Positions 8,482-34,390 of a stretch of 45,131 nt of DNA are shown here, one piece after another; the first letter of the stretch is position 1, and every line of letters starts with the position of its first letter. A program made the translations under genes and the position numbers. This DNA is from an uncultured Muribaculaceae bacterium (GTDB lineage: Bacteria > Bacteroidota > Bacteroidia > Bacteroidales > Muribaculaceae), in the NCBI GenBank assembly GCA_947629175.1, contig CANRCT010000027.1:1-45131 (forward strand). Direction: 5' to 3'. Below the pieces are notes generated by a model. That model ran no database searches. It was not told where the DNA came from and saw only the letters and a program-made list of their open reading frames with translations.

Positions 8482-8500
8482 AGGATTTCAAATTATTACG

Positions 8501-10635: not shown

Positions 10636-10636
10636 T

Positions 10637-13483: not shown

Positions 13484-13501
13484 ATTTTCTAACTTAGTAA
13501 A

Positions 13502-14758: not shown

Positions 14759-14806
14759 ATAAGACTATTTATAATTAAATTTCACCTTTCGAAAAAGAAA
14801 GCTAAC

Positions 14807-15679: not shown

Positions 15680-17196
15680 CGTCGTAATTTTTTTATCAAT
15701 ATCTCATTCAAAATCATACGTTCTTTGTGATCCAACACCAAGATAGTTGTCAGTAAACAAACTACTATTGAGGAACTGACGAAGCACGTAGTCAGTCGGA
15801 TTAAAGGAGTTTCAAAAAATGTCTGGAAAAATGCAGCGATTAGCGTACCTATTGCCCCTATAGCGATGTAGGGGACAATCACTTTTATTATGAATTTCAT
15901 AAAAGGGAAAGCCACGGAAATCTTAAGGGAATAAAAGCCAATTAACATACAGATGGTCATTATTATAAGTAATAATTGCATAGAAGTAATAGCCGGATAT
16001 CCTAACTTAAAACAAACATAGCACAAACACACATAAGCTAAACACAACGCGGATCCCAATACCTGTACGATTTTGATACGCCCGACAGCGAGAAACAATG
16101 GGATATAAGCATTGCTAATCCCCGTCACAAAACATACACATAATGACCATCTGACAAACACGGGAGTCTGAGGCGGATAACTTTTCAACCATATATCGAG
16201 AATATATTCTGTATCTAACAGAAATGGAATCATGATTATCAATATCAGGAATCCATGGGCCTTGGCAGATATCATCGTAAGGAGTTTACTGCGTTCTATG
16301 TCCCCGGAACTATATGATTTTGTTATTTGTGGCGCAATAGCCATACCTATATTAGACGTGAATGAGTTGATGAGAGAATTCACTTGCATGACTATTCCCA
16401 TTACGGCATTAAGAATCAAACCAAAAAACAGATTCAACAGAATTGTCGTGCCCTGATCCTTAAAAGTCCCTGCTGCTGAACCTACCCCCATCCATAACGA
16501 GAACGATCCCATATTTTTCGCAACATCCTTATTGATATTCCAAGTCCATTTGGATTCAACGAAATTCCTTACACAATATCTTCCATACATTATTCGGGTC
16601 ACCAAACTAACGACAGCTAATAACCCTGTGTAATAATACAACCGGTCCGTATTAAAAAATTGGAGCGAGATTACGACTCCGAGTTTTAGAAGAGAGTCTA
16701 CTATCCCCATCAAAGCATAGAAATTCATCTTTTCTCTAGCGATAATAATAGCTTGGTAGGGGACGGAGATAAAATTAAGAACAAATACAATTAATGCACA
16801 GATATAAACAAACACGCCTACATTAATCCTATCTTCTGGAATATTTAATAGTCTGTTTTTTATTATGATAATTCCTATTGCAGCTCCAATAATAAATATA
16901 AATATTGATGCTATCACAATTATATTGATAATGGTGGAACATGTTTGTTTTAAGCGATACTCATCTTCTCGGCCTATTTCATACGCTATAAATCTCGAAG
17001 CTGTCACTGCAAAAAGCCCTGTGAAAATAGTCAAGAACGCTATAAAGCCTCCGACAAGAGAGAACAATCCATAGTCTTCAAAACCAAGAACACTTAATAG
17101 AATTCTACTGGTAACTATTCCAATCACTAATGAAATTAGCAATCGAATATATAGATAGATTGTATTGGATAGTATTTTTCTCCCCGAATGGCTCAT
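15676..17196 (-). CDS. wzx: Wzx-type polysaccharide flippase of operon L
   Basis: A 506-residue integral membrane protein with about 12-14 hydrophobic helices. The start, NTIYLYIRLLISLVIGIVTSR with LGFEDYGLFSLVGG, is the pattern of the MOP/Wzx oligosaccharide flippase family. It should move the undecaprenyl-linked repeat unit of operon L across the inner membrane. It is not closely similar to the flippase of operon R (31391-32839), which has the WzxC-type start, so the two operons carry unrelated export sets. It is coupled to the fucosyltransferase by a 4-base overlap and lies 3 bases after the GT2 gene. Confidence 0.88.
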   Translation of the reverse strand: MSHSGRKILSNTIYLYIRLLISLVIGIVTSRILLSVLGFEDYGLFSLVGGFIAFLTIFTGLFAVTASRFIAYEIGREDEYRLKQTCSTIINIIVIASIFIFIIGAAIGIIIIKNRLLNIPEDRINVGVFVYICALIVFVLNFISVPYQAIIIAREKMNFYALMGIVDSLLKLGVVISLQFFNTDRLYYYTGLLAVVSLVTRIMYGRYCVRNFVESKWTWNINKDVAKNMGSFSLWMGVGSAAGTFKDQGTTILLNLFFGLILNAVMGIVMQVNSLINSFTSNIGMAIAPQITKSYSSGDIERSKLLTMISAKAHGFLILIIMIPFLLDTEYILDIWLKSYPPQTPVFVRWSLCVCFVTGISNAYIPLFLAVGRIKIVQVLGSALCLAYVCLCYVCFKLGYPAITSMQLLLIIMTICMLIGFYSLKISVAFPFMKFIIKVIVPYIAIGAIGTLIAAFFQTFFETPLIRLTTCFVSSSIVVCLLTTILVLDHKERMILNEILIKKLRR

Positions 17197-17199
17197 ACT

Positions 17200-18219
17200 T
17201 CAATGATTAATCAAAGCTCTGATTTTTTGCACTAATTTGAAAGGGAATAATGATAAAAAAGCTAGACTGATTAAATAAAAAAAGTTCGATCGAAATTTTA
17301 TATGATTTGTTAATGGATGGTTAGATTTCAATAACGCTGGATATAAATCCTTTCTGAATGCTTTTTGTTCATTAATAGGTATTAGTATCCAATCAGGATA
17401 CATTCTGTTCACTACATTCTTGAAATCAATACACAGAGATGAATTCTCAAAGAAATAATCACCTATCAATCCAAATGCATGCAGATCCAAAGCATCGCGT
17501 GACAATCCATTTCCCCAGTTATTCTCAGTCCCGACTGTGGCCTGTATATAAGCTTTATCATTATACTGCAACAAATGTCCTTCTAAAAGATACTTCCAAA
17601 AGTAATATTCAAATGAATAACCAGTTCCGATAAATATTGGATCAATTGGGATGTCTTTAACAGCTTCAGTCTTAATTATAACTCCACTAATAAAACTCCC
17701 TAAAGCTAAAATACTATTACATAGGGCAAAATAATTTCTAGCTTCAATTTCGTTCTTAAAATTCACTGTCAATCTATTGGTATCCCTCAAATAACTGACA
17801 TGTTGTTTGAATTCACGATTCAAATCAACTATTTCCACATCCGAAATATAAAAATCTATAGTGTCGTTTAGATTAATTAACTCCATCACATATTTCAATC
17901 CACCAGGTTTGAAATAATCATCATCACCTTTTAAGATTGTATACTTTCCGGTCGACATTGACAAAGCTTTAATGAAATTTTTGTCCGGACCTATATTTTT
18001 TGAGTTAGTGTTTATTTTGATATTTGATGATGGATATTGAGATAATAATCGCTTAAGTTCTATGTGAGTATTATCAGTTGAAGCGTTATCGGAAATACAT
18101 ATTTCAATTAAATCAACTGAATTGGATTCGATAGATTGTATAATTAAATCTTTAATAGAATCAATAAGATAATGACATCGGTTGAATGTTGGGATGCAAA
18201 TAGACAACAATGGCTTCAT
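17200..18219 (-). CDS. Family 2 glycosyltransferase
   Basis: A 339-residue GT-A enzyme starting with PLLSICIPTFNRCHYL and ICISDNASTDNT, with the acidic ILKGDDDYF motif at about 94-102. This is the common layout of abequosyl- or tyvelosyl-transferase-like GT2 proteins. Its place directly after the CDP-dideoxyhexose genes makes it a reasonable candidate for the transferase that uses that sugar, but this is a guess from order. The C-terminal end is basic and hydrophobic. There is a 3-base gap to the flippase gene and a 14-base gap from the short-chain reductase. Confidence 0.85.
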   Translation of the reverse strand: MKPLLSICIPTFNRCHYLIDSIKDLIIQSIESNSVDLIEICISDNASTDNTHIELKRLLSQYPSSNIKINTNSKNIGPDKNFIKALSMSTGKYTILKGDDDYFKPGGLKYVMELINLNDTIDFYISDVEIVDLNREFKQHVSYLRDTNRLTVNFKNEIEARNYFALCNSILALGSFISGVIIKTEAVKDIPIDPIFIGTGYSFEYYFWKYLLEGHLLQYNDKAYIQATVGTENNWGNGLSRDALDLHAFGLIGDYFFENSSLCIDFKNVVNRMYPDWILIPINEQKAFRKDLYPALLKSNHPLTNHIKFRSNFFYLISLAFLSLFPFKLVQKIRALINH

Positions 18220-18233
18220 ATAAAATACAGCAA

Positions 18234-19130
18234 TTAATCAGAGTTAATGAATCTTTTGAAACCCTCATCAATAGAGATCAGTGGTATCCAACTAGGTAAC
18301 AGTTTATATCCCACATACAAATTCATTACTTCTCGTGATTTATATTGACGGGCGCCCCAGTCTAAATTTAATTGTTTTCCTATAATGGACTGGAATATCA
18401 AAACAACTTCTTTCAATGTCCTCGGATTTCCTGAATAAACACCATATGTTTCATTTCGAACACTCGGATCATTGTTCAAGCAATCATATGAAATTTCGAA
18501 AGCCCGTGCTACATCATTTACATGAACAAGATCTATCATCTGTTCTCCCAAAGATATATCCAATACTTTATCTGTACCAGCAATGTCACGCAATGTACTC
18601 CATAACTTTGGACGTTTATCATCTTCACCATAAACATCAAATAATCGAAGGTTTACATGCCGAATTCCATATGCCTCTACGTAGAATTTAACTATTTTTT
18701 CAAAAGCTTCTTTAGTAGCTGCATATAAATCTACAGGATTATATTCAACCTTGCCATCATAATTCTGCCAATATGTCCCTGTAGATATAAACAATTTTGT
18801 TTTGCTATATCTCATGGCCTCTAATATTTCAGTACCAAAACATATATTAGCATCTATAATAGTGGATATTTGCGATAAAGATGGAGCATTAACAACTGCC
18901 GCGGCTAAATGCATAATAACGTCAGCCTCACGTCCAACTATGAAATCCTTTAGGGATTCGATCTCACCATCGTATTCAAAAACAGTTATCTTAGTTTTGA
19001 TATCATTTATCAGATTGTAACTTGAATCAGGTCTAGCAATGATAGCCACATTCCACCCTTTAGAAATAAGATGTCGCACCACATGAGAGCCAATATAACC
19101 TGTAGCACCTGTTACAATACAATTAGGCAT
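18234..19130 (-). CDS. NAD(P)-dependent epimerase/dehydratase, likely CDP-dideoxyhexose synthase
   Basis: A 298-residue extended short-chain dehydrogenase. GATGYIGSHV at 8-17 is the dinucleotide site, and YAATKEAFEK holds the catalytic Tyr and Lys. It follows rfbG by 2 bases, at the place where paratose/abequose synthase (RfbS/RfbJ) stands in Salmonella and Yersinia loci. The likely job is reducing C4 of the CDP-4-keto-3,6-dideoxyglucose made by RfbH to give CDP-abequose or CDP-paratose. Which isomer forms cannot be told by eye. It is AT-rich, while rfbG and rfbH are GC-richer, so it may have a separate origin. Confidence 0.75.
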   Translation of the reverse strand: MPNCIVTGATGYIGSHVVRHLISKGWNVAIIARPDSSYNLINDIKTKITVFEYDGEIESLKDFIVGREADVIMHLAAAVVNAPSLSQISTIIDANICFGTEILEAMRYSKTKLFISTGTYWQNYDGKVEYNPVDLYAATKEAFEKIVKFYVEAYGIRHVNLRLFDVYGEDDKRPKLWSTLRDIAGTDKVLDISLGEQMIDLVHVNDVARAFEISYDCLNNDPSVRNETYGVYSGNPRTLKEVVLIFQSIIGKQLNLDWGARQYKSREVMNLYVGYKLLPSWIPLISIDEGFKRFINSD

Positions 19131-19132
19131 AT

Positions 19133-20209
19133 CTATTTCAGGTATTCATTTATTTGCCTTACGCATAGGTCGTAAGGACATTCGGACGTATATTTTTTAT
19201 ACCAGTCGGTGGTGAGCGATATGGTCTGGGAGAGGTTGAGGCGGGGCTCCCAGCCGAGACGAAACTTGGCTTTGGAAATATCCAGCAACAGGAGTTTGGC
19301 TTCATGTAGTGCATTGGGATCGGACAGATCACGAAGCTCTCCGCTACCGTAAGCCTCAACAACTTTCGAAGCCACTTCCCAGACAGTGGAGATGGATTCG
19401 GCTCGGGGCCCGAAATTCCATCCTTCGCAATATTCCGTGGGACTATCCCACATTTTACGTGCAAGCATGAGATAGCCCGACAGGGGTTCAAGAACATGCT
19501 GCCAGGGGCGGATCGCTTTGGGCGAACGTATGTCGATCGGACGGCCGGCCTCGAGAGCGCGGATACAGTCGGGAATAATGCGATCGAGAGCCCAGTCGCC
19601 GCCGCCTACTACGTTGCCGGCCCTAACACTGGCTATTGATTTGCCATGCGTGGAATACTTTTCAGGATTGAAGTAACTTCGACGCCAAGACGCTATGGCC
19701 AGCTCGGCTGCGCCCTTTGATGACGAATACGGATCGTAGCCACCCATAGGCTCGTTTTCACGGTATCCCCATATCTGCTCCTTGTTTTCGTAGCATTTGT
19801 CGGTGGTGATCATCACTCCAACCTTCACGCTGTCGGTGGCGCGGATGGCTTCGAGGATATTGATCGTTCCCATCACGTTGGTCTGATACGTCTCCACCGG
19901 AATGTCATAACTAAGCCTCACAAGCGGTTGAGCGGCGAGATGGAACACGATTTCAGGCTGAAACTCTCTGAAAATACGTTTCATTCTCTCACCGTCGAGA
20001 ATGTCGGCGCGTATATCGGCTACGATTTTTTCGCCTATACGGGTCAACACGAAATTGTCGCGGTCAGTAGCGGGATCAAGACCTATTCCTGCTACTTCAG
20101 CCCCAAGCTCATTGAGCCAGACGGACAGCCAAGAGCCCTTGAAACCGGTATGGCCCGTGATAAGGACCCTTTTCCCTTTATAGAAATTATCGAAAATATC
20201 TACTCCCAT
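19133..20209 (-). CDS. rfbG: CDP-glucose 4,6-dehydratase
   Basis: A 358-residue SDR enzyme closely matching RfbG/DdhB. GHTGFKGSWLS at 19-29 is the NAD site with the characteristic FKGSWL, and Y161 and K165 in YSSSK are catalytic. MITTDKCYENKE and NVVGGGDWALDRIIPD are family signatures. It converts CDP-glucose from RfbF to CDP-4-keto-6-deoxyglucose. It lies between rfbH (2-base gap) and the short-chain reductase. Length is as expected. Confidence 0.93.
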   Translation of the reverse strand: MGVDIFDNFYKGKRVLITGHTGFKGSWLSVWLNELGAEVAGIGLDPATDRDNFVLTRIGEKIVADIRADILDGERMKRIFREFQPEIVFHLAAQPLVRLSYDIPVETYQTNVMGTINILEAIRATDSVKVGVMITTDKCYENKEQIWGYRENEPMGGYDPYSSSKGAAELAIASWRRSYFNPEKYSTHGKSIASVRAGNVVGGGDWALDRIIPDCIRALEAGRPIDIRSPKAIRPWQHVLEPLSGYLMLARKMWDSPTEYCEGWNFGPRAESISTVWEVASKVVEAYGSGELRDLSDPNALHEAKLLLLDISKAKFRLGWEPRLNLSQTISLTTDWYKKYTSECPYDLCVRQINEYLK

Positions 20210-20211
20210 GA

Positions 20212-21576
20212 TTATCCGTTGTGTTGTTGATCCCAGAGAGCATTTGCCGTATACTCACGGATCCTTTCGATCATATAGTGGAGCATATCGTTTGTCATCC
20301 CCGGATATACTCCGATCCATAGAGTGCTGTTCATTATGCGGTCGGTGTTCTTAAGATCTCCTACCACTCTATAACCGGCGCCTGATTCGCGCATCTGATC
20401 AAACGCCGGATGTTTCAGGAGATTTCCTGCAAAAAGATTGCGTGTCTGGATCTTGCACGACTCCAAATATTTGGCGAGATCGTTGCGGGTGAATGGAGCA
20501 TCGTCCTTGACAGTGATAAGGAACCCGAACCATGCAGGATTGGAGCCTTGCTGCGGCTCGGGAAGGATAAGCCAGGGCGTTCCCTCCAACCCTTTGCGCA
20601 GCACGCTGAAATTATGTCTGCGTCGCTCGACGATATCGTCAAGTTTCTCGAGTTGAGCGCATCCTATTGCAGCCTGCATGTCCGTAACTTTCAGATTATA
20701 CCCGAAATGCGAATAGACATATTTATGGTCATATCCCATTGGCAGCTGTCCGAACTGCTTTGTAAAACGGCAACCGCACGTATTGTCTACACCGCCCATG
20801 CACCAGCAGTCGCGGCCCCAGTCACGAAATGAATTGACGAGTTTGTGGAGCAACGGGTTATTAGTATATACGGCTCCTCCTTCGCCCATGGTCATGTGAT
20901 GCGGAGGATAGAATGAACTCGTGCCGATATCCCCGATAGTGCCAGTCTTGCGGAGCTCACCGTCAATCTCGTATGTCGAACCAAGCGCATCACAGTTGTC
21001 TTCAACCAACCAAAGATTATGCCTGTCACAGAACTCCTTTACAGTCTTCAGGTCAAAAGGATTGCCCAATGAGTGGGCGATCATCACAGCTTTGGTCTTT
21101 GAAGAGTATGCTTTTTCGAGTTGTGTGACATCAATATTGTATTCAGGCACTGTAACATCGACAAACACCGGAACAGCACCATATTGAATGCAGGGCGTGA
21201 CAGTAGTGGGGAAGCCGCACGCTACAGTTATCACCTCGTCACCTCGCTTGATCTGCCGTTCACCCAGTTCGGGTGAAGTGAGTGCCGAGAAAGCCAGAAG
21301 ATTTGCCGATGATCCGGAATTTGTAAGCGAGCAGTATCTCACTCCCAGCCATTTTGCAAAAGATTTCTCAAACTTGGAAGCCCATGGACCGGCTGTCAGC
21401 CAGAAGTCGAGAGAAGAATCAACAAGATTTACCATCTCGGCAGCGTCGAAATATCGTCCGCCATAATTCACGAATGTCTGGCCGGGCATAAAGCTTTTTT
21501 TCCGTCCATGAGTCTCCTCATAATATTTTTTTGTCAGCTCAAGGATCTGCTTCTTCAGTTCTTCTTTACGTTCCAT
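20212..21576 (-). CDS. rfbH: CDP-6-deoxy-4-hexulose 3-dehydrase (E1)
   Basis: A 454-residue PMP and [2Fe-2S] enzyme. The usual PLP lysine of the DegT fold is replaced by histidine (FYPPHHMTMGEGG, H226/H227), as in known E1 enzymes. Cysteines C257, C259, C267 and C269 in the RDCWCMGGVDNTCGCR region fit the iron-sulfur site. It removes the C3 hydroxyl of CDP-4-keto-6-deoxyglucose. E1 needs electrons from the E3 reductase (AscD/DdhD), and no such gene is seen here. It must be elsewhere or be replaced by another reductase. It is flanked by rfbF (17 bases) and rfbG (2 bases). Confidence 0.94.
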   Translation of the reverse strand: MERKEELKKQILELTKKYYEETHGRKKSFMPGQTFVNYGGRYFDAAEMVNLVDSSLDFWLTAGPWASKFEKSFAKWLGVRYCSLTNSGSSANLLAFSALTSPELGERQIKRGDEVITVACGFPTTVTPCIQYGAVPVFVDVTVPEYNIDVTQLEKAYSSKTKAVMIAHSLGNPFDLKTVKEFCDRHNLWLVEDNCDALGSTYEIDGELRKTGTIGDIGTSSFYPPHHMTMGEGGAVYTNNPLLHKLVNSFRDWGRDCWCMGGVDNTCGCRFTKQFGQLPMGYDHKYVYSHFGYNLKVTDMQAAIGCAQLEKLDDIVERRRHNFSVLRKGLEGTPWLILPEPQQGSNPAWFGFLITVKDDAPFTRNDLAKYLESCKIQTRNLFAGNLLKHPAFDQMRESGAGYRVVGDLKNTDRIMNSTLWIGVYPGMTNDMLHYMIERIREYTANALWDQQHNG

Positions 21577-21593
21577 TATTTTTCGATTCCTTT

Positions 21594-22394
21594 TTAGTAT
21601 CCTTTAGGCACCTCACGCTCCCATTTCTTCCATGGAGCCGCCCCGGCCGCGAGTAGTTTCTCAAGCATAGCTTTTTCACGTGCGTTATCCATGCATTGCC
21701 AGAAACCTTCATGTATATACGACATAAGCTGTCCCTCTTTGACAAGCGCTTCAAGCGGGCCCCGTTCGAACACACATTCATCGCCATTCAGATAGTCAAA
21801 TATTTCAGGCTCAAGCACCATGTACCCGGCATTGATAGGCGCACCGTCCACGAGATTCTTTTCTCTAAAGGACTTTACCGCATAGTCGCCGCCTATATTA
21901 AGAATACCCTTGTCCTGAGCGATCTTGACAGCTGTGAGAGTGGCGATTCTGCCATGACTCTTGTGGAAATCAAGCAACTTGTTAATATCGACATCGCAGA
22001 CTCCATCGCCATATGTCATGAAAAAGGGCTCATCACCCACATATCTCTGTATTCTCTTGATGCGTCCCCCCGTCATTGTGTTGTAACCTGTATCGACGAC
22101 TGTAACTCTCCAAGGTTCACAGTTGCTGCAATGAACGGTCATTTCATTATGATTGTCGCGATAGTCGAAAGTCACATCGGAATTGTGCAGGAAATAATTG
22201 GCGAACCACTCTTTGATATATTCCTGTCGATATCCGGCACAGATTATAAATTCAGTATGACCGTAATGAGCATATTCCTTCATAATATGCCATAATATCG
22301 GCATTCCACCGATTTCAATCATCGGTTTCGGCTTAAACTGCGATTCTTCGGAAATACGTGATCCGAATCCGCCAGCGAGCAATACAACTTTCAT
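21594..22394 (-). CDS. rfbF: Glucose-1-phosphate cytidylyltransferase
   Basis: A 266-residue nucleotidyltransferase. LAGGFGSRISEES at 6-18 and KPKPMIEIGG give the nucleotide site, FMTYGDGVCDVD holds the metal aspartate, and the C-terminal GFWQCMDNAREK is typical of RfbF. It makes CDP-glucose from CTP and glucose-1-phosphate, the first step of the 3,6-dideoxyhexose pathway. It is the second gene of operon L, 90 bases after the NusG-like gene. No promoter consensus is present in that gap, so it depends on transcription through the antiterminator gene. Confidence 0.94.
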   Translation of the reverse strand: MKVVLLAGGFGSRISEESQFKPKPMIEIGGMPILWHIMKEYAHYGHTEFIICAGYRQEYIKEWFANYFLHNSDVTFDYRDNHNEMTVHCSNCEPWRVTVVDTGYNTMTGGRIKRIQRYVGDEPFFMTYGDGVCDVDINKLLDFHKSHGRIATLTAVKIAQDKGILNIGGDYAVKSFREKNLVDGAPINAGYMVLEPEIFDYLNGDECVFERGPLEALVKEGQLMSYIHEGFWQCMDNAREKAMLEKLLAAGAAPWKKWEREVPKGY

Positions 22395-22484: not shown

Positions 22485-23594
22485 TCAGGAGGCGGCGGGG
22501 AGGGAGGCGGATGGAGAGAGATGCCAGAGGATCTCGTCGCGCAGGGCCGAGGCTGACTTTGAGAGGGCGGTTTTCGCGCCGGAGGAGCCGGAAGCTACAG
22601 AGACTGAAGGGGCCACGGTAGCCGAGTCCGCGGGGGCCGCGTCGGAGTCGGGAGCGCCCGAAACAGCGGCGAGGGCTTGGCGCAGGAGGGCGGGGTCGCG
22701 GTCGAGAGCGCCTCTGACGAAGAGGGCCAGGGGGCTGAAGGCTCCGAGGCGGTCGAGGCGGCGGCGCGCGTCGGCTGCAGCGGCCGTCTCGCCGAGGATG
22801 CTCAGGGCGCCCAGAAGCACCGCGGCGAGCCGCTCGGCGAGCTTGCCGCTGCCGAGGTCGGCCCTCTCCATGCGGCGCACGAACACCGTCAGCGAGGCTA
22901 TCTCCCTGTCGGCCAACTGTTCGCCCAGCCGCATCTTGCGCAGCGCAGCGAAGAGGCGTGGTGCGAAGGCATCTATCTGGTCGTAGGCGCGGCGGCTTCC
23001 GGCGGCGAATTCAAGCACGCGCACCGAGCGGGCGTCGACGTTGAACGCTATCGTACCCAGTCCGCCCGACGTCTGCACAGCGATATTGCCGTTCGAGCTC
23101 CCCTTGCGCGCCATAAACCGGCCGACGAGGCCGGCAAAAGCACCGTCCATCACCTCCACGAGGTCGCCGTCCTCAAGCTCGACATCCTCAATGCGGAAGA
23201 ATGGCAACCGGTTTTCATATCCGCGGGCGATGATGCGGAAAGCCGTCATCTGAGCGTCGCTCACATGCGCATAGCGGTCGGCGCCCGCGCGGTCGATTAC
23301 GAACGAAAATCCGTTCTGGCTGCCACACAGCCGTTTGACATCACGCAGCCTCCCGCGCACGAACACATAATGATAGGTCAACGCCACCTCGCGCCTAATC
23401 ATCCGGCCGCCGACATCGACGGCGCTCACGATCGACGGCGCCCAAAGCTCCAGATCAAGGCTTTCGGCAACATTAAGACGATCCACGGCCTCACGGGCGC
23501 GACGAATTCGGCCTGCCGAACCGCCCGACACATGGTTGAGAACCCACCATCGTCTTGCTTCAACTTCAGTTTTTGAAGCGCTTTCGTTATCCAT
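22485..23594 (-). CDS. NusG-like (UpxY-type) antiterminator with long C-terminal extension
   Basis: About 369 residues from the ATG at 23594; an upstream in-frame GTG at 23633 is less likely. Residues of about 15-115 are a NusG N-terminal domain (RRWWVLNHV, then LELWAPSIV and YHYVFVRGRL), and about 140-165 a KOW motif (EDGDLVEVMDGAFAGLVGRF). UpxY proteins bind polymerase and keep it going through their own capsule operon. The protein is twice the normal 170-200 residues: about 195-330 is an Ala/Arg/Leu-rich helical domain and the end is a Ser/Ala-rich tail. I know no named family for the extension. The gene is GC-rich, first in operon L, and lies just after the left arm of the invertible segment. 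No upxZ follows it. Confidence 0.85.
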   Translation of the reverse strand: MDNESASKTEVEARRWWVLNHVSGGSAGRIRRAREAVDRLNVAESLDLELWAPSIVSAVDVGGRMIRREVALTYHYVFVRGRLRDVKRLCGSQNGFSFVIDRAGADRYAHVSDAQMTAFRIIARGYENRLPFFRIEDVELEDGDLVEVMDGAFAGLVGRFMARKGSSNGNIAVQTSGGLGTIAFNVDARSVRVLEFAAGSRRAYDQIDAFAPRLFAALRKMRLGEQLADREIASLTVFVRRMERADLGSGKLAERLAAVLLGALSILGETAAAADARRRLDRLGAFSPLALFVRGALDRDPALLRQALAAVSGAPDSDAAPADSATVAPSVSVASGSSGAKTALSKSASALRDEILWHLSPSASLPAAS

Positions 23595-23711
23595 CGGATA
23601 TAACTCTACTTCCTCAGCCGAATAACAATCCACTATATATCAACTGTTTGGATTGCGATATTCGACTGACCTCCGAAAACGGGCTGCATCATGCGCCGTT
23701 CCGGCCCGAAG
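23595..23711 (-). promoter_or_regulatory. Leader of operon L
   Basis: Going leftward from the left inverted repeat the leader reads ACTG, then CTTCGGG. A hairpin follows with arms at 23696-23700 and 23678-23682 (AACGG/CCGTT with an inner GC pair). The right leader has the matching TTTCGGA and its own hairpin. UpxY- and LoaP-type proteins act on leader RNA, so this is the probable target. No TAnnTTTG box faces left anywhere between 23595 and 23888. Confidence 0.55.
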
Positions 23712-23733
23712 CAGTATCTCTTGGTAAGAGATA
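23712..23733 (+). repeat. Left inverted repeat of the promoter switch
   Basis: 22 bases (CAGTATCTCTT, GGT, AAGAGATA) that are the exact reverse complement of 23889-23910. The copy is itself a palindrome: AGTATCTCTT (23713-23722) and AAGAGATACT (23726-23735) around GGT. A near-palindrome with an asymmetric centre is what a recombinase dimer site looks like. The GGT/ACC centre sets the orientation that gives inversion instead of deletion. Confidence 0.85.
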
Positions 23734-23844
23734 CTAAACCGAGCCAATCTCCTGAATTTCAATGCATTCTCAAAATCGGATTTGGTTAAATATTGTAATA
23801 ATGCGTTATTGCTGCTAAACATGTGCCAGATAGCCGACAATTGA

Positions 23845-23876
23845 TTTGCTCATTTCAAAGGAATTGTCTATCTTTG
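23845..23876 (+). promoter_or_regulatory. Rightward promoter inside the invertible segment
   Basis: TTTG (23845-23848) and TATCTTTG (23869-23876) are 20 bases apart, an exact Bacteroidetes promoter. Transcription should start near 23882, so the right inverted repeat is the first structure in the RNA. It is the only TAnnTTTG match on either strand between 23595 and 23888. In this orientation it drives operon R. Confidence 0.8.
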
Positions 23877-23888
23877 CGGTGAAATGCA

Positions 23889-23910
23889 TATCTCTTACCA
23901 AGAGATACTG
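23889..23910 (-). repeat. Right inverted repeat of the promoter switch
   Basis: 22 bases (TATCTCTT, ACC, AAGAGATACTG), the exact reverse complement of the left copy. In the rightward RNA the TATCTCTT/AAGAGATA arms would form an 8-base hairpin close to the 5' end. The same hairpin would start the leftward RNA after inversion. Confidence 0.85.
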
Positions 23911-23974
23911 TTTCGGAATGCAGTCAGGCGGCTGTTCAGCCCCTCATTCCGGAGCCTCGTTGACCGTTTTACAA
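23911..23974 (+). promoter_or_regulatory. Leader of operon R
   Basis: The leader continues from the right repeat as ACTG, TTTCGGA. It then forms a nested hairpin: CGGAATG (23914-23920) pairs with CATTCCG (23945-23951), with an inner GGC/GCC stem (23930-23932 and 23939-23941). The YTTCGG start is shared with the operon L leader. It may be the loading site for the NusG-like protein, and the stable stem may pause polymerase. Confidence 0.55.
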
Positions 23975-24604
23975 ATGGCTGACATCCAGACAACTCCAGC
24001 GGCGACGGCAGCGCGCAAAAGCGTTGACGGCGCCGGAGGCGTACCCGGCGCCCACTGGTATGTGGCCCTCGTCAGCCATAACGCCGAGCACACCATGGCG
24101 CGCACCATCGGCCAGCACGGATTCGCGACCTACGTCGCCTCCCAGCGCGAACTGCGCGTATGGCGCGACGGCCGCCGCAAAGAGATCGACCGCGTCGTCA
24201 TCCCGTCCACCGTATTCATCCACTGCACCGAGTCCCAGCGCCGCCAGGCCGTCCGCATCCCCGGCATCCACCGTTTCCTCATGGACCGCGCCGCCGCGGC
24301 CGGCTCCCGCCCCGCCATCGTTCCCGACGCCCAGCTTCAGCGCCTCCGCTTCATGCTCGGCGCCACCGACCGCCCCGTAGAATTCATCTCCCGCCCCCTC
24401 ACTCCGGGCATGCGCGTCAGCGTGATCCGCGGCTCCCTCCGCGGCCTCCAGGGCGAAGTCATCTACACACATGGCGCCACCTCCGACGCAGCGGCCAACC
24501 CGGACCACGACGCATCAGCCACCGCCCGCCTCGTAATCCGCCTCGACATCCTCGGCTGCGCCACCGTAGCCATCTCCCCCCTCGACCTCCAGCCCCTCGA
24601 CTGA
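23975..24604 (+). CDS. NusG-like (UpxY-type) antiterminator of operon R
   Basis: A 209-residue protein from the ATG at 23975; longer frames would begin in the inverted repeat or leader. Residues of about 25-125 are the NusG N-terminal domain (HWYVALVSHNAEHTMARTIG, VVIPSTVFIHC, VPDAQLQRL), and about 143-165 the KOW loop (LTPGMRVSVIRGSLRGLQGEV). This is the usual UpxY length and plan. It should promote transcription of the long operon R, which follows after 39 bases. It is only distantly similar to the NusG-like protein of operon L, so each may recognise its own leader. It is very GC-rich compared with the downstream glycosyltransferases. No upxZ-like gene follows. Confidence 0.88.
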   Translation: MADIQTTPAATAARKSVDGAGGVPGAHWYVALVSHNAEHTMARTIGQHGFATYVASQRELRVWRDGRRKEIDRVVIPSTVFIHCTESQRRQAVRIPGIHRFLMDRAAAAGSRPAIVPDAQLQRLRFMLGATDRPVEFISRPLTPGMRVSVIRGSLRGLQGEVIYTHGATSDAAANPDHDASATARLVIRLDILGCATVAISPLDLQPLD

Positions 24605-24643: not shown

Positions 24644-25042
24644 ATGGACAAACCCATCATTATCGACCTCCCAAAATTTCTCGACCGCCGCGGCAACCTC
24701 TCCTTTGCAGAACAGTTGAAGCACGTACCGTTCGAGATCCGCCGCACCTACTGGATCTACGACGTTCCCGGAGGCGAATCGCGCGGAGGTCACGCCTATA
24801 AGGAAAACGAAGAATTCATCATCGCCCTCTCCGGAGCCTTCGACGTCAAGCTCACCGACGGACAGCAGACATCCACCTTCACCCTCAACCGATCGTATTA
24901 CGGACTCTACGTGCCCAAAGGCTACTGGCGCCAGATGAGCAACTTCTCCACCAACTCCCTCGCCCTCATTCTCGCCTCCACTCCCTACGATCCCGACGAC
25001 TACGAAAACGACTTCGATTCATTCATAAACTCACGGCGATGA
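24644..25042 (+). CDS. fdtA: dTDP-4-keto-6-deoxyhexose 3,4-ketoisomerase, first copy
   Basis: A 132-residue single-domain cupin of the FdtA/QdtA/WxcM-like family. FLDRRGNLSFAEQ, the RRTYWIYDVPGGESRGGHAYKE stretch (in parts, with the active-site His in RGGHAY) and LNRSYYGLYVPKGYWRQM are all family features. It isomerises dTDP-4-keto-6-deoxyglucose to the 3-keto form, the step before 3-amination. It overlaps the second copy by 4 bases. The aminotransferase and acetyltransferase of the same pathway come 2-3 kb later, after an inserted cassette. RmlA and RmlB, which supply the substrate, are not in the window. Confidence 0.88.
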   Translation: MDKPIIIDLPKFLDRRGNLSFAEQLKHVPFEIRRTYWIYDVPGGESRGGHAYKENEEFIIALSGAFDVKLTDGQQTSTFTLNRSYYGLYVPKGYWRQMSNFSTNSLALILASTPYDPDDYENDFDSFINSRR

Positions 25043-25479
25043 AGAAATCAAAAGTCTACGACTGCTCCATGATAGAGTTCAGCCGCCATCATAGCGACCG
25101 CAAGGGCAACTTAAGCGTGGTTGAAAACGGACTGACAGTACCTTTCGACGTCAAGCGCACTTATTACCTCTACGACGTTCCGGGCGGAGAATCCCGCGGC
25201 GGCCACGCCCACCGCGACCTCAGCCAGCTCATCATAGCCGCTTCAGGCAGCTTCACCGTCACCCTCGACGACGGCGAAGTCCGCCGCACCTTTTTCCTCA
25301 ACCGCCCCTACCAGGGACTCTACATCGTCCCCGGCATCTGGCGAACCCTCGACGACTTCTCCTCCGGCGCCGTCTGCCTCGTCCTCGCCTCCGACATCTA
25401 CACCGAAGCCGACTATATCCGCAGCTACGACGAATTCATAAAAGAGAAACATCAAGCGAGCAATACTAATCAATTATGA
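25039..25479 (+). CDS. fdtA: dTDP-4-keto-6-deoxyhexose 3,4-ketoisomerase, second copy
   Basis: A 146-residue paralogue of the gene before it, with the same RRGNLS-type start (HHSDRKGNLSVVENG), YYLYDVPGGESRGGHAHRDL and LNRPYQGLYIVPGIWRTL. The active-site His is preserved in RGGHAHR. Tandem copies may give different C4 stereochemistry (FdtA-type to galacto, QdtA-type to gluco products), act as a heteromer, or be a simple duplication. The 4-base ATGA overlap with the HAD gene marks the border where GC-rich sequence changes to AT-rich. Confidence 0.87.
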   Translation: MKKSKVYDCSMIEFSRHHSDRKGNLSVVENGLTVPFDVKRTYYLYDVPGGESRGGHAHRDLSQLIIAASGSFTVTLDDGEVRRTFFLNRPYQGLYIVPGIWRTLDDFSSGAVCLVLASDIYTEADYIRSYDEFIKEKHQASNTNQL

Positions 25480-26072
25480 AGTTCCTATTCGATTTAGATG
25501 GCACTGTTTCCTCTGAAGAGACCCTACCAATAATTGCTTCGCATTTTAATATCGAGGATCAAATCACCGCTTTGACTATGGAAACGGTCAAGGGGAATAT
25601 CCCGTTTATAGAAAGTTTTATAAGACGAGTCAATATTTTAGGGACTTATTCTGTCACAGAAATCGCTGAGCTCTTAAATCATGTGAATGTCTATCCCCTT
25701 ATCACTGATTTTATAAAAACACATAAAAAGGAATGCATCATAGTTACGGGGAATTTGGAATGTTGGTGTCAGAAACTAACAAGTCGCTTTGATTGTGAAT
25801 CTTATTTTTCACAATGTATCGTTGAAGATGATAAGGTGATTAAATTGACCTCAATTCTTCGGAAAGAGCAAATCGTTGACAAATACAGAGCATTAGGCGA
25901 AACTATCGTTTTTATCGGAGATGGGAACAATGATTTGGAAGCCATGCGCCATGCGGACATTTCAATTGCTACAGGATTGACACATAGGCCGGCACGAAGT
26001 CTTTATGCAATAGCCGATTATATTATATTTAACGAAAAAGCATTATGTCGTCAACTAAATCAGTTGTTATAA
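25476..26072 (+). CDS. HAD-IB family phosphatase (SerB-like)
   Basis: A 198-residue HAD hydrolase. Motif I FDLDGTVS gives nucleophile D6 and acid D8, motif II is VTGN near residue 90, and motif IV GDGNNDLEA is near 148-156. The small helical cap is like that of phosphoserine phosphatase. The substrate is unknown; a phosphorylated amino acid or C3-C4 acid would fit the family. It overlaps the second fdtA by 4 bases and the nucleotidyltransferase by 28 bases, so the products are probably used together. It is the first of a three-gene AT-rich cassette inserted between fdtA and fdtC. Confidence 0.82.
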   Translation: MKFLFDLDGTVSSEETLPIIASHFNIEDQITALTMETVKGNIPFIESFIRRVNILGTYSVTEIAELLNHVNVYPLITDFIKTHKKECIIVTGNLECWCQKLTSRFDCESYFSQCIVEDDKVIKLTSILRKEQIVDKYRALGETIVFIGDGNNDLEAMRHADISIATGLTHRPARSLYAIADYIIFNEKALCRQLNQLL

Positions 26073-26686
26073 GTTGTGCTGGGATTGGTTCCAGATTAGG
26101 ATTAGGACTAACAAAAGCGCTGGTCAAAATCAACGGTGAATCGCTGATTGCACATCAGCTAAGGTTATTCAAGAATGTTGAAGACTTGAGAATTGTAGTA
26201 GGATTTCAGGCTAATGAAATCATTGAGGAAGTATTAAGATATAGATCTGATGTAACATTTATATTTAATCATCATTATTTTGAAACTAAAACGGGTGCTA
26301 GTTTCTATTTAGGAGCAAAGCATGCGAATAATTTCATTATAGAATGGGACGGTGATCTTTTAGTACACCCTGACGATGTAAACAAGATACTATCAGTTGA
26401 AGATGAGTTTATCTGTTATTCCGATATCACTTCAGATGATGCAGTGTATGTAAAAACAGACGAATATGGCTATGTAACTGAATTCTCAAGAAAGGAAGGA
26501 GATTTTGAATGGACTGGTCCAGCTTGTATTAATAAGAAACACCTGTTTTACTGCACTCAGAATGTCTATAATATGTTTGAGCCGTATCTCCCGATGAAAG
26601 GTATCAAAATTCGAGCATATGACATCGACACTTATGATGATTATCTTAGGGTATCAGAAATAGTCAAATCCTGGAAATTATGGTAG
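26045..26686 (+). CDS. LicC-like nucleotidyltransferase
   Basis: A 213-residue protein with the sugar/alcohol-phosphate nucleotidyltransferase fold. The glycine loop is VVISCAGIGSRLG (a Cys replaces the usual Ala), followed by TKALVKINGESLI. IIEWDGDLLVHPDD carries the metal aspartates and YDIDTYDDY is the C-terminal acidic motif. Size and motifs are nearer to phosphocholine cytidylyltransferase than to glucose-1-phosphate enzymes. It probably makes a CDP-activated small molecule. It overlaps the HAD gene by 28 bases and the racemase by 7. The glycerophosphotransferase-like enzyme at 28988-30286 may use its product. Confidence 0.8.
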   Translation: MSSTKSVVISCAGIGSRLGLGLTKALVKINGESLIAHQLRLFKNVEDLRIVVGFQANEIIEEVLRYRSDVTFIFNHHYFETKTGASFYLGAKHANNFIIEWDGDLLVHPDDVNKILSVEDEFICYSDITSDDAVYVKTDEYGYVTEFSRKEGDFEWTGPACINKKHLFYCTQNVYNMFEPYLPMKGIKIRAYDIDTYDDYLRVSEIVKSWKLW

Positions 26687-27441
26687 GAGTAATTGGTGCA
26701 AACGGTGTTGCTGCAACAAATCGGCTATGCACCCTTATTGAAGAGAAATTAACACAAATGGGTGCCTACAGAGATGCACATCATCCGGAAATGTTGATTT
26801 TTCAGGCAACACAGGCGCCAAGCAGAAGTCTGTATTTAGAAGGAAGAGGTCCGAGTTTTATTGATGATTATATAAACATCGGACGCAAGATGAAAACCTT
26901 CGGATGTGATGAAATTTGCATGTGTTGCAATACAGCACACTATGCTATAGATCAAATCTCTAATGCGGTAGATGTTGCATTCACCGATATCATCACCTTG
27001 ACAGTCAGCGCGTTGCCCGACGGGGGGGGGTATGGCATTATGTGTAGTGACGGATGTCGTAAATTTGGCATCTATGACATGAGAATAAAACACCTTGAAA
27101 AAAATGGCAGGATCATATACCCGGATGAAGATTATCAGAAAAAGGTCACTCGTGGCATATGTAATGCGAAGAATTCAAATAGGTTCCTTCCCCCAGACAA
27201 TGAAGAGTCACCACAGAATTGTTTCATTAGCGCTTGTCGTAATTTAATTAGTTTAGGTGCCAAAACGATCATTTCAGGTTGCACGGATATCAATGCTGTG
27301 TTTGATAGCAAAATATTTAAACAGACATTCCCCAATATTGGATACGTTGACAGTCTGCAATGTATGGCAGACTATATCGTTGAAAAACATATCGCGACAT
27401 CCCCATATTGGAGTAATAATGAAATTCACGAACGACAATGA
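26680..27441 (+). CDS. Aspartate/glutamate racemase family protein
   Basis: A 253-residue member of the cofactor-independent Asp/Glu/hydantoin racemase family. The two catalytic cysteines are present: C83 in MCCNTAH and C201 in [11 protein letters not shown], where Asp replaces the more usual Glu after the CT. The likely product is a D-amino acid or an inverted hydroxy acid for attachment to the glycan. Housekeeping MurI would not be placed in a capsule operon and has a different N-terminus. Codons 115-117 are a run of nine G (27022-27030), a possible slippage site that would shift the frame before the second catalytic cysteine. It overlaps the acetyltransferase gene by 4 bases. Confidence 0.8.
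27022..27030 (+). repeat. Nine-G homopolymer inside the racemase gene
   Basis: A run of nine G after CGA C encodes Gly115-Gly117. It is the only such G tract noticed in the window and stands out in AT-rich sequence. At nine G the racemase frame is open; eight or ten would truncate it before C201. Confidence 0.85.
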
Positions 27442-27893
27442 TACATCCGCTTGCTGACGTCAAATCGATTGCAGTTGGAGAAGGCACCAACATATGGCAA
27501 TTCTGCGTTGTATTTCCTGATGCCGTAATTGGCAAAAATTGCAATTTATGCGCTGGTGTATTAATTGAAAACAATGTAATTGTCGGCAATAACGTTACGA
27601 TAAAAAGTGGTGTCCAACTTTGGGATGGCTTGAGGGTTGAAGATGACGTTTTCATAGGGCCTAATGTAACATTTACAAACGATCCATTCCCGAGATCAAA
27701 AAAATATCCCGACTCGTTTCCCATAACAACAATAAAAAAAGGTGCCAGCATTGGTGCCAATTCGACAATTCTACCAGGAGTCACTATCGGAGAAAAAGCA
27801 ATGATCGGAGCGGGCAGCATTGTCACTCATGATGTGCCAGCTGGAGAACTTTGGTTGGGTGCCCCCGCACGGTTCTTTAGAAAAATCGATTGA
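27438..27893 (+). CDS. fdtC: Hexapeptide-repeat N-acetyltransferase (FdtC/QdtC-like)
   Basis: A 151-residue left-handed beta-helix acyltransferase: [42 protein letters not shown], the [20 protein letters not shown] loop and the cap [16 protein letters not shown] with the inserted loop is usual in WbpD/QdtC/FdtC enzymes that acetylate the amino group of nucleotide-linked amino sugars. Next to fdtB, it should turn dTDP-3-amino-3,6-dideoxyhexose into its N-acetyl form (Fuc3NAc or Qui3NAc). It overlaps the racemase by 4 bases and lies 3 bases before fdtB. Confidence 0.85.
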
Positions 27894-27896
27894 ACA

Positions 27897-28997
27897 ATGA
27901 TAAAATTTCTTGATCTTGAGAAAGTCACCGCGAGCCACGGCGACGAAATCCGCGAGGCAGTAAGCCGCGTGGTCAACTCCGGCTGGTATCTGCAGGGCAA
28001 AGAGAACGAAAAGTTTGAAAAAGACTACGCCGATTACATCGGCACCAGCTATGCCGTAGGCTGCGCCAACGGACTCGACGCACTCATCTGGATACTCCGA
28101 GCCTATGTGGAAATGGGAGTCATGAAGCCCGGCGACGAAGTCATCGTCCCCGCCAACACCTACATCGCCACCATCCTCGCCATCACGGAGAACGGCCTCG
28201 TGCCCGTCCTCGTAGAGCCCGACATAGCCACCTATCAGATCGACCCGGCGCGCATCGAGGCGGCCATCACGCCCCGCACCCGCGCCATCATGATCGTGCA
28301 CCTCTACGGCCAGTGCGCCTACACCGACGAGATAGGCTGCATCTGCAAAGAGCACGGCCTGAAACTGATCGAAGACAACGCCCAGGCCCACGGATGCCTC
28401 TTCAACGGCCGCCGCACCGGCTCGCTCGGCGACGCCGCCGGCCACAGCTTCTATCCCGGCAAGAATCTCGGAGCCCTAGGCGACGGCGGAGCAGTCACCA
28501 CCGACGACGAAGAGCTCGCCCGCACCGTCCGCGCCCTCGCCAACTACGGCTCCACGCGCAAGTACGTGTTCAAATACGTAGGCCGCAACTCCCGCCTCGA
28601 CGAGATCCAGGCCGCCGTGCTCGGCGTGAAGCTCCGTCACCTCGACGCCGACAACGCCCGCCGCAAGCAGATAGCCCGCATGTACGTCGACGGCATCACC
28701 AACCCCGCAATCATTCTCCCGCAGATTCCCGACGCGGACGCCCACGTGTTCCACATCTTCCCGATCCGTACCGAGCGCCGCGACGAGCTGCAGAAGTATC
28801 TCGCCGACAACGGCGTGCAGACCATCATCCACTACCCCATTCCTCCCCACCGTCAGGAATGCTACCCTCAGCTCCACCACCTCTCCCTTCCCGTCTCCGA
28901 GCAGATCCACGCCCAGGAGCTCTCCCTCCCCATCTCCCCCGTGATGCCCGACGCCGAAGTCGCCGCAGTAATCCGCCTCATCAATCAATGGAAGTAA
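27897..28997 (+). CDS. fdtB: DegT/DnrJ/EryC1 aminotransferase (FdtB-like)
   Basis: A 366-residue sugar aminotransferase. PLP lysine K189 is in [15 protein letters not shown], and D160/Q163 in IEDNAQAHG hold the cofactor. [10 protein letters not shown] and the C-terminal [12 protein letters not shown] are typical of the FdtB/QdtB group. It aminates C3 of the 3-keto sugar made by FdtA. The gene is GC-rich, unlike the cassette before it and the glycerophosphotransferase-like gene after it. Its reverse and shifted frames stay open for long stretches only because of this composition. It overlaps the next gene by 10 bases. Confidence 0.9.
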
Positions 28998-30286
28998 AAG
29001 CAATCGTAAAAAAAATAATACCTTCAAAAGTGCGTTCGTACATGCGGATGTCAATTACACCAATAATTGAATGGTATTTAATAAACACGGCTCAACAACA
29101 CCTTGCGTCCGCATTAAAAAGATCACAAAGAAAGGCCGTGGATAAGCCTGTTAAGGTAATTTTTTTTGTTTTAATGAGTTCAACTTGGAAATTTGATAAA
29201 CTATATGAGCTATTTAGCCAAGATTCCCGCTATCAACCAATGATTTTAGTCTGTCCCGTCTTTGGGTTTTGCGACAATAATGAGCAACCATTTATCGAAG
29301 AAACTTACACCTATTTCCAATCTAAAGGATATCATGTTCAAAAAGCGATTGAGAACGGAACTTTCGTTGATGTAAAAAAACAGTTAAACCCTGATATAAT
29401 AGTTTTTACCAATCCCTATTTGAACCACCCTAAATATGATATAAAGAATTATAGAAACACATTGACTATTTATACCCAATATGGATATACGATAACAGAT
29501 AAATTTGATATCACTTGTGATGGATTAATGGAAAATCTTGTATGGAGATATTATACAGATACTCCATATATTCACAAGATCACTCTACAAAAATCAAGAA
29601 GAAAAGGGAAGAATGCTGTATGTTTCGGATTTTCCGGAATTGATGTATTCCTTAATAATCCAAAAAAATACGATGGGTGGAAAGATTGTGGAGGGAAAAG
29701 ATGCAGAATCATATGGGGTCCGCATCATACGATCTGTAATTACAATACCATGTTAAACAAATCTTCTTTCTTAGAATATTCTGATTTTATGTTTGAAATG
29801 GCCACTAAATACCATGACAAAATTCAAATAGCTTTTAAGCCGCATCCGCTTCTAAAACATAGATTGGAAATCATTTGGGGAAAAGAAAAAACTGAAAAGT
29901 ATTATGACAGATGGGCTCACCTTTCCAATGGACAGCTGGAAACCGGAGGATACGTCGATCTATTTCTCACTTCAGATGCAATAATGCATGATAGTGGTTC
30001 TTTTATATTTGAATACTTATTTATTGACAAACCTGCATTATATCTAACCAATGGGTCACAAATAGAGACTGATTTGAATTCACTGGCAGTCTCTGCAATA
30101 TCACAGTGTTATGATATTGCTAGAGATGAAAAAGATATTGAAAATTTTATCATTTCAGTTATCGAAGGTAAAGATAATAAGCGTGAGGTTAGGAATAAGT
30201 TTCTTACAGAAAACCTGATGCCACCAAATGGGTTAACTGCTTCCGAAAATATTTTTAATGACATCACAACGCAAATTTTTCGTTGA
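28988..30286 (+). CDS. CDP-glycerol glycerophosphotransferase-like protein (TagB/TagF family)
   Basis: A 432-residue protein from the ATG at 28988. The open frame extends much further upstream only because it is shadowed by fdtB. The C-terminal half shows TagF-like features: [47 protein letters not shown] (in parts), with the conserved HDS and the Ser/Glu after it. The N-terminal half with [18 protein letters not shown] and YTQYGY is the GT-B-like partner domain. These enzymes transfer a polyol phosphate from its CDP form to a glycan. With a LicC-like nucleotidyltransferase in the same operon, a phospho-linked substituent or backbone in the operon R glycan is likely. Confidence 0.8.
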
Positions 30287-30290
30287 AGAC

Positions 30291-31391
30291 ATGAATGTGG
30301 TAAAAATTTCTCTATTATCTTTGTTCATAATATTGATTTGGGGATGTGATGATCAAGATAAGGTCAATCAAATAATGGAAATTGATGCCGAGTTTTACGA
30401 ATCGGCGTTTTCTGTTTATCCACAATTGAATGACACCATCAATGTCGCTGAGTCGATGTCAGGTACAGCGACAAATTCACTCAACAGAATTGTGATACAT
30501 AATCCTTATAAAAACAAAGCGTCCCTCAGTCTTAAAGGAGCCATGCACAATCATACTGAAAATTCAGCACCTATTGACGGATATAAATCAGGGACACCAA
30601 AATGGACAGCCGAAAAATTCAGGGATGAGGGAGGATTTGATTTTTATACCATCACTGATCACAATTATGTCACACCTGATCCGCAAGTAGATGGCATCGT
30701 CTGGATGGGAGCCGCTGTAGAAGACACTAAATTGGATAACGACGGGCAGCATCTTGTGATATATAATCTTCCCGATGGATATGAATTCAGGGACATCAAT
30801 AGCGACATCAATACATTAGTTGCACATTATCACTCACTTGGGGCACTTGTCAGCTACGCACATCCCGACTGGCCCAGACAATTTCAGCAGCAGGAAAAAA
30901 TCGAGGCAATCAAACGTATTGATTTTGTAGAGGTATTCAATTGCCAAGATGGTTCCATCAGAGCATATAACACATTGCTAAAAAAGGGGCCAGTCGGGGC
31001 GTTCGGTACAGACGATTTCCATTATAATCCTTCAGCCTATTCTGAAAACAAATATTTCGACAAATCCTATATTATTGTTCATGCGAAAGCTAAAGCACGT
31101 GAAGAAATTTGGGATGCAATTCTTCAAGGAGCTTTTTACGCTTCAACTGGCGCCCGAATGGACATCACCTCATTAAGGAATATCGTTACTGTCAGAACGC
31201 AAAAACCGTCAACCATTGAATTTTTAGCTGATAACACTAAGAAAGCAGCCGATAACATAACTCTAAAACAAGAGACTGATACTTACGAGTCAGATTATAC
31301 GATTGACGGTAAGAATACCATAATATGGATTAAGGTATCTAATGACGACGGCCAAGCGATAAGCCAGGCGATAAGGGTCAAACATCTTTAA
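30291..31391 (+). CDS. PHP-domain lipoprotein
   Basis: About 366 residues. I start it at the ATG at 30291, which gives a lipoprotein signal: MNVVKISLLSLFIILIWGC with Cys at 19 and acidic residues after it, as seen in exported Bacteroidota lipoproteins. The mature part has PHP metal motifs: AMHNHTENS, YTITDHNYV, SYAHPDWP and FGTDDFHYN. PHP domains are metal-dependent phosphoesterases. On the cell surface or in the periplasm it could cut or edit phosphodiester links in the glycan. It may be linked to the phosphotransferase just before it (4-base gap). I know no named capsule gene of this kind. Its stop overlaps the flippase start (TAATG). Confidence 0.75.
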   Translation: MNVVKISLLSLFIILIWGCDDQDKVNQIMEIDAEFYESAFSVYPQLNDTINVAESMSGTATNSLNRIVIHNPYKNKASLSLKGAMHNHTENSAPIDGYKSGTPKWTAEKFRDEGGFDFYTITDHNYVTPDPQVDGIVWMGAAVEDTKLDNDGQHLVIYNLPDGYEFRDINSDINTLVAHYHSLGALVSYAHPDWPRQFQQQEKIEAIKRIDFVEVFNCQDGSIRAYNTLLKKGPVGAFGTDDFHYNPSAYSENKYFDKSYIIVHAKAKAREEIWDAILQGAFYASTGARMDITSLRNIVTVRTQKPSTIEFLADNTKKAADNITLKQETDTYESDYTIDGKNTIIWIKVSNDDGQAISQAIRVKHL

Positions 31392-32839: not shown

Positions 32840-32908
32840 TGTTTGTCTATAGCATGACATCTAAGCAACTTTCATAAATTCTCTTAAGCATCGGGCATCT
32901 CATATTTA

Positions 32909-33874: not shown

Positions 33875-34338
33875 GCCGGACGCAGAAGTATGGTCGCAAT
33901 CTCCTCCAAACCATACTTGACAAGCGACTTTGCCTTTCTTCCATGTTTCAGAATTTTTATCGGTTTAATATTTATATCTTTATGTTCACCAACGAGATAC
34001 GCCCATACAAGAGCCATGCAGACCATCGCGACAAGTCTCGCGATGCGCTCCATATCACGCATATGGGTGTCCTCGATGTTGAAGCCGGAAGATTTCATGG
34101 CTCTGAAGGCCGTTTCTATCTCCCAACGCTTTTTGTATGTCAAAATCGCGCCCTCGGGCCGGTTGAAGCATATAAGAATCTGCAATTCCGGAACTCCATC
34201 GGAGTTTTTGATTCGGCTTCCGGCAAGATAGACATACTCGCCTTTGTGAAGAAAGAGCTTATGGAAGAATTTCTCCTGACCGACCTTCAAATCATTGAAC
34301 AGCCACCAGGCACGGATTCTCTCACCGGATTTTGGAAA
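33835..34338 (-). mobile_element. IS4-type transposase remnant
   Basis: On the minus strand the DNA reads as the C-terminal part of a DDE transposase: RAWWLFNDLKVGQEKFFHKLF, EYVYLAGSRI, then TYKKRWEIETAFRAMKSSG, which is the Y-R-E-K signature of IS4-family enzymes, and ILKHGRKAKSLVKYGLE to FKFLSC. The N-terminal catalytic part is missing and the native stop is lost at the join with the glycosyltransferase. No terminal inverted repeats are visible. It is a dead fragment within operon R, lying opposite to its transcription. Confidence 0.8.
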
Positions 34339-34389
34339 TTTTTTATTCCACAGTGGATAAAAACATTGATCAAAACAGCCTATTCATAA
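34339..34389 (+). pseudogene. Orphan 3' end of a glycosyltransferase gene
   Basis: The frame FFIPQWIKTLIKTAYS ending at 34389 has the amphipathic, basic make-up of glycosyltransferase C-termini and stops one base before the next gene. It may be the original tail of the GT2 gene at 32909, left behind when the transposase fragment replaced the middle. The identity is a guess from a short peptide. Confidence 0.35.
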
Positions 34390-34390
34390 G

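Follow-up and report, generated by a model that had tools for sequence, protein, structure and literature searches.

A probably invertible promoter between two divergent glycan operons of an uncultured Muribaculaceae bacterium

We analysed a window of 45,131 bases, which is the entire contig C27 of a draft genome of 79 contigs (G000), and found that two runs of glycan genes diverge from one intergenic region of ~0.4 kb holding a single promoter between inverted repeats. The 155-bp segment enclosed by the repeats is, in our judgement, quite likely an invertible promoter that serves as a two-way selector, under which glycan L or glycan R would be made and never neither.

Results

Inverted repeats and promoter

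The first-pass annotation of this DNA had described perfect 22-base inverted repeats around 155 bases, with exactly one promoter, facing right, between them. Both descriptions held on re-examination. The repeats are perfect over 22 nt (23712-23733 and 23889-23910, spacing 155 nt) and extend to 28 nt when one mismatch is allowed. A chance origin was rejected, because 60 shuffled versions of the window (dinucleotides preserved) gave perfect inverted repeats, with arms at most 1 kb apart, of no more than 16 nt. The elements of the region are the following:

23706..23733, + strand: left inverted-repeat arm, with the site TATCTCTT-GGT-AAGAGATA at 23715-23733
23889..23916, - strand: right inverted-repeat arm; read on the + strand, TATCTCTT-ACC-AAGAGATA at 23889-23907, with a core complementary to that of the left arm
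23734..23888, no strand: 155-bp segment predicted to invert
23845..23876, + strand: sole Bacteroidota-type promoter, TTTG-N20-TATCTTTG, now directed at operon R

The promoter consists of TTTG at 23845-23848, a spacer of 20 nt and TATCTTTG at 23869-23876, all on the + strand; by arithmetic, inversion would place the -7 box on the minus strand at 23753-23746. A scan of the window with the Bacteroidota-type consensus (TTTG-N19-22-TAnnTTTG) returned three full matches in total, and the other two (minus 3813-3782 and minus 35768-35738) head neither operon L nor operon R. Between 18556 and 30918, not a single TAnnTTTG begins on the minus strand. The earlier statement that 23595-23888 lacks a left-facing TAnnTTTG box was likewise confirmed, even with one mismatch allowed in TTTG. 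The lack of an operon L promoter is judged here by one consensus, and a start of another promoter type is possible. The repeats enclose a promoter ahead of a glycan operon, as at the invertible capsule promoters of Bacteroidales. The draft assembly shows the segment in one orientation. The junction sequence was unmatched in a search of a plasmid collection, and a UpxY profile run against a named genome collection (one genome per species) returned six loci, none of which was this locus flipped.

Two divergent glycan operons

On either side of the segment lies a one-directional gene run of ~17-19 kb with glycan genes that include a flippase and a polymerase:

23975..24604, + strand: first gene of operon R, a UpxY-family antiterminator (NF033644, 103.2 bits, cut-off 100; PF02357)
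24644..40766, + strand: glycan genes of operon R (profile matches; part of the genes scanned)
22485..23594, - strand: first gene of operon L, a UpxY/NusG-like antiterminator (NF033644, 61.4 bits, cut-off 100; domain match at 23082-23552)
4186..22394, - strand: glycan genes of operon L (profile matches; part of the genes scanned)
4014..4046, no strand: hairpin with 14-nt arms (93%), immediately beyond the end of operon L and a possible terminator of it

Operon R continues after UpxY with nucleotide-sugar genes, and its genes include an FdtA-type gene, an aminotransferase and a hexapeptide transferase. This operon also encodes a Wzx-type flippase (31391-32839), an EpsG-type protein (36606-37706) and a WecB-type epimerase (37703-38857), and it also carries glycosyltransferases. 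Operon L has genes for a glucose-1-phosphate cytidylyltransferase, RfbH and a CDP-glucose 4,6-dehydratase, together with a Wzx-type flippase (15676-17196), two EpsG-type proteins (12818-13483 and 8501-9604), glycosyltransferases and LicD. Among the scanned proteins of both operons, which represent part of their genes, no initiating transferase family was found. UpxZ is a trans inhibitor of B. fragilis, and its Pfam family was absent from the extension of the left antiterminator and from five genes that follow UpxY.

A full polysaccharide operon led by a NusG-like gene had been proposed for each side. Flippase, polymerase and glycosyltransferase genes were indeed found on both, and the right-hand UpxY exceeds its profile cut-off, whereas the left antiterminator falls below it. 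The left protein continues for about 200 aa beyond the antiterminator match; at E 1e-3 it matches no Pfam family, and below the cut-off it has only weak similarity to families such as KOW (E 0.037). Over 349 aa it shares 39% identity with the gene that heads an operon at locus L085, and over 315 aa it shares 37% with the one that heads an operon at locus L083, the segments aligned with these genes being 37-45% identical; both loci adjoin site pairs of the family described below.

In the present orientation, the promoter would read operon R via its UpxY antiterminator and operon L would be silent; in the flipped orientation, it would read operon L via the antiterminator of that operon. Because there is a single promoter and no other is recognisable at either head, R or L would always be transcribed, so that each cell would make glycan R or glycan L and the locus would have no OFF state. 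By layout, neither orientation is OFF for glycan synthesis, as a glycan operon starts on both sides.

A family of sites with matched cores

In this genome, the exact arm core TATCTCTT-GGT-AAGAGATA occurs only at C27 and at C1:5952-6157, as an inverted pair at each. The C1 repeats are perfect over 21 nt, and the single promoter there faces left, pointing to the 3' end of the gene on that side, with the UpxY operon behind it on the right. No other full promoter directed at the C1 UpxY operon was found in the stretch examined, and we read C1 as what appears to be an ordinary one-sided switch that is OFF in the assembly.

Of 397 family genomes, 19 contain the site TATCTCTT-NNN-AAGAGATA, with an RSY core allowed, and one contains the reversed pattern. 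The 3-nt cores were complementary in 26 of 28 neighbouring site pairs, while they vary between loci; by the search pattern all seed sites were RSY-cored, and partners were accepted with any core. Matched cores within pairs are expected if both sites must match for strand exchange. Their probability by chance is 4e-45 assuming random cores and independent loci, a value that ignores relatedness; the loci are not fully independent, since there are apparent near copies among them (L074/L075/L087 and L073/L090). The two non-complementary pairs are L081, which has a second element, and L089, which has a same-sense partner. Three further exact sites stand outside the 28 pairs with no partner in reach (L070 and L093, each close to the end of a contig, and L092), and the segment of L080 is masked. 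Within the 26 complementary pairs, a strict promoter match was found in nine, only a weak one in four and none in 13, so some of the pairs cannot be recognised as promoter switches.

A candidate recombinase on another contig

Tyrosine recombinases of one family lie adjacent to site pairs in three genomes (G280, G002 and G188), with a shorter frame in a fourth (G109). As expected of tyrosine-recombinase targets, the paired sites share a central sequence and are linked to an enzyme family. The family was present in 19/19 genomes with the site versus 221/397 overall (hypergeometric P 1e-5, relatedness ignored), and most of the 221 genomes with the family are without an exact TATCTCTT-NNN-AAGAGATA site. 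When the best 30 of the matches in these 221 genomes were inspected as recombinase loci, some of them short or with N runs, a CTCT-N5-AGAG inverted pair with complementary cores was found near the recombinase in 20 and was lacking in 10; a reversed-dyad control gave 0/30.

The genome under study has one close copy of this family, an intact ORF of 400 aa on another contig (C9:62011-63213), its standing as the single close copy being based on the 4 of 18 candidates of this genome that were scored in the family search. It is 52-55% identical to the site-adjacent recombinases and has the same motif residues in the catalytic region, while the next best full-length recombinase of the genome is about 29% identical to that family. 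The surroundings of the C9 copy yielded no inverted pair. Its family membership and the linkage of the family to sites make it a candidate trans-acting recombinase for C27 and C1. We infer that C9:62011-63213 is the best candidate for the enzyme, connected to the sites by its family, and such a trans-acting tyrosine recombinase would recombine both TATCTCTT-NNN-AAGAGATA sites of the segment.

The genome offers other enzymes, with 16 PF00589 matches (15 above the cut-off) and one PF00239 match (28.3 bits, cut-off 23.3). One tyrosine recombinase of another family is encoded in the window itself at 2352-3716, past the end of operon L, and is preceded by a full promoter (feature 2352-3813). That either this enzyme or an Mpi-type serine invertase inverts the segment is conceivable and, on balance, rather improbable. 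The window recombinase is distant from the site-adjacent family (30% identity over 179 aa), and window positions 1-5200 yielded no inverted pair resembling the site; it was rejected as best candidate for these two reasons. The serine recombinase was set aside as best candidate as well, its match covering only model positions 38-126 of 145. In addition, the arms are unlike the Mpi-type repeat given for B. fragilis in the available part of PMC8375218.

The intact ORF of the linked family also bears on whether the repeats are a fossil, that is, whether they recombined formerly and the segment has since become fixed in the strain. The single orientation in the draft assembly would suit a fossil. 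The matched cores of the arms and their perfect complementarity over 22 nt, and a second locus with the same site that is perfect over 21 nt, argue against it together with the ORF, and we regard it as highly unlikely. The arrangement is real, and the segment is probably functional.

Recurrence in related genomes

UpxY genes lie at most 1.5 kb from nine of the 26 complementary pairs, on one side in six cases and on both sides in three. The two-sided loci are the one in this window, G002:C49 and G029:C172, all from one genus, and each of the other two has one strict promoter between its sites, facing left. At G002:C49, the UpxY genes sit in a 706-bp inverted repeat (96%), and the flippase-type genes that follow them share only a 56-bp match. 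At G029:C172, two different UpxY fusions (21% identical) point apart. Close divergent UpxY pairs were found in three of 34 genomes of the genus, i.e. in two of the 33 others, in a search at E 1e-3 that gave 60 matches in the 34 genomes, many of them fragmentary. None was found in any other genome among 89 from as many genera of the order at E 1e-12, nor among the matches listed for 81 genomes of another genus at E 1e-8; at these two thresholds, weak UpxY types such as that of G029:C172 (E about 1e-12) could be missed. Among one-sided relatives, the promoter points toward the gene at L068 and L082 and away from it at C1 and L079, and both orientations are expected of active switches.

These loci also bear on whether the segment inverts merely as an ON/OFF switch of operon R, with operon L expressed independently from a type of promoter that the consensus misses. 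One-sided arrangements are the commoner kind, at six of the nine UpxY-bearing pairs, and degenerate promoters do escape consensus scans. Such a switch would nevertheless have to be squared with the missing left-facing -7 box in 23595-23888, with the resemblance of the operon L antiterminator to first genes beside site pairs (L083 and L085), and with the two other genomes in which UpxY genes flank a single promoter on both sides. We hold it to be unlikely. The two-way selector is the reading that we prefer, and the claim of the first-pass annotation that one promoter chooses between two divergent operons gains support from the layout, the matched-core pairs, the linked recombinase family, the one-sided C1 locus and the two further double-UpxY loci, with exclusivity itself being read from sequence. 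Mutual exclusion of L and R would follow from the layout and is supported by the relatives.

Other arrangements of the site family were also observed. At L085:6838-9631 (G188:C103), a single site pair lies between a recombinase of the site family and a divergent UpxY operon; its promoter points at the recombinase, so a flip may shift transcription from that enzyme to the glycan genes. The divergent non-UpxY candidates were L084, L095 and L080. At L095:8863-9369 and L084:8581-9019, site pairs lie between divergent non-UpxY genes, one of which (at L084) encodes a BspA-type leucine-rich-repeat protein, while the other three have no Pfam match; these two loci are possibly further either/or switches. 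Two convergent UpxY pairs at G385:C18 and G400:C21, in another genus, were set aside as they do not have the divergent layout. At L130:4111-6168 and L131:510-2752, in two genomes of another genus, UpxY-type genes face each other across one gene, glycosyltransferase-like by eye, which is an unusual convergent arrangement.

Antiterminators fused to a recombinase-related domain

Four UpxY-type antiterminators carry an N-terminal domain related to tyrosine recombinases (L009:6309-7736, which is in C1 of the genome under study, L076:8723-10177, L096:57-1415 and L096:1967-3439). In the site family, such fusions were found at C1, at G029:C172 on both sides and at G227:C35. In a single low-identity alignment with the site-adjacent recombinases, all four fusion domains have other residues in place of the first catalytic Arg, the Tyr and two His residues (the one following the second Arg and that of Gly-His), and three of the four retain the second Arg. 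With these catalytic residues replaced, the fused domain looks like a dead recombinase. Through this domain, an antiterminator could be guided to the recombination site that lies where its operon begins. No paper combining UpxY, tyrosine recombinase and NusG was found in the literature searched.

A gene without a Pfam family follows UpxY at L009:7750-8616 (C1) and at L085:9631-10425, the two products being 25% identical to each other. Both genes occupy what we take to be the position of UpxZ in B. fragilis. An HMM of this post-UpxY gene, seeded partly with unrelated proteins, had no match in the window.

Discussion

The observations on C27, C1, C9 and the fusions can be joined in one broader proposal, which we offer tentatively and would put at a little under even chances: one trans-acting recombinase would set both the either/or choice at C27 and the ON/OFF state of C1 through the same site, one of the C27 glycans would always be made, and the dead-looking recombinase domains fused to UpxY could steer antiterminators to the site at the start of their own operon. 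Capsule phase variation in gut Bacteroidales is usually presented as a set of independent promoters, each either ON or OFF. If real, a promoter that constantly drives one or the other of two operons would provide exclusivity and an obligate coating in cis, and such an either/or promoter would make clear predictions for phage escape and for the encounter with the immune system. The locus also provides a simple two-state system, whose site family is defined and for which there is a single candidate recombinase.

We found no description of a divergent, two-operon or mutually exclusive invertible promoter in the literature searched, an absence that weighs little given that most subscription journals lie outside its coverage, and no paper on DNA inversion in Muribaculaceae was found there by title. 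The nearest relatives are the phase-variable capsule loci of Bacteroides, in which, according to the available portions of the reports, an invertible promoter between inverted repeats turns one glycan operon ON or OFF, UpxY is often the first gene, and one repeat may serve several loci of a genome (PMC3090145; PMC13114119; PMC8375218). The location of UpxY genes behind invertible promoters is likewise described in the accessible text of PMC8748976. At those capsule loci there is one operon per promoter, whereas here an antiterminator-led operon lies on each side, so there is no OFF orientation.

In the intergenic shufflon of B. fragilis, which involves outer-membrane genes of the ragA/susC type, inversion also picks the surface genes that an invertible promoter serves, as far as the available text of PMC5729914 goes; large coding segments travel to the promoter there, whereas here a 155-bp promoter segment lies between fixed operons. 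As for the enzymes, the available parts of the sources describe Tsr19 as a tyrosine recombinase that drives a capsule promoter in Bacteroides (PMC3090145) and the Mpi invertase of Bacteroides as a single enzyme that acts globally (PMC8375218), and our candidate would resemble the first in type and the second in reach. What sets it apart is that it is a tyrosine enzyme encoded away from its targets, with a predicted trans action on two loci or more.

Two systems outside the Bacteroidota invite comparison. In the sap S-layer system of Campylobacter fetus, reportedly described by Dworkin and Blaser in 1996, one promoter on an invertible segment is said to serve alternative surface genes, as we propose here. 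At sap, the alternatives are individual S-layer genes that share their 5' ends, and the inversions are large, whereas the present locus combines a short site with two complete biosynthetic operons. In the Hin system of Salmonella, inversion also yields one of two alternative surface products, and exclusion is achieved via a repressor encoded in one of the operons, whereas here it would come from promoter direction alone. The layout is a variation on known invertible capsule promoters, and its new part is the operon on both sides.
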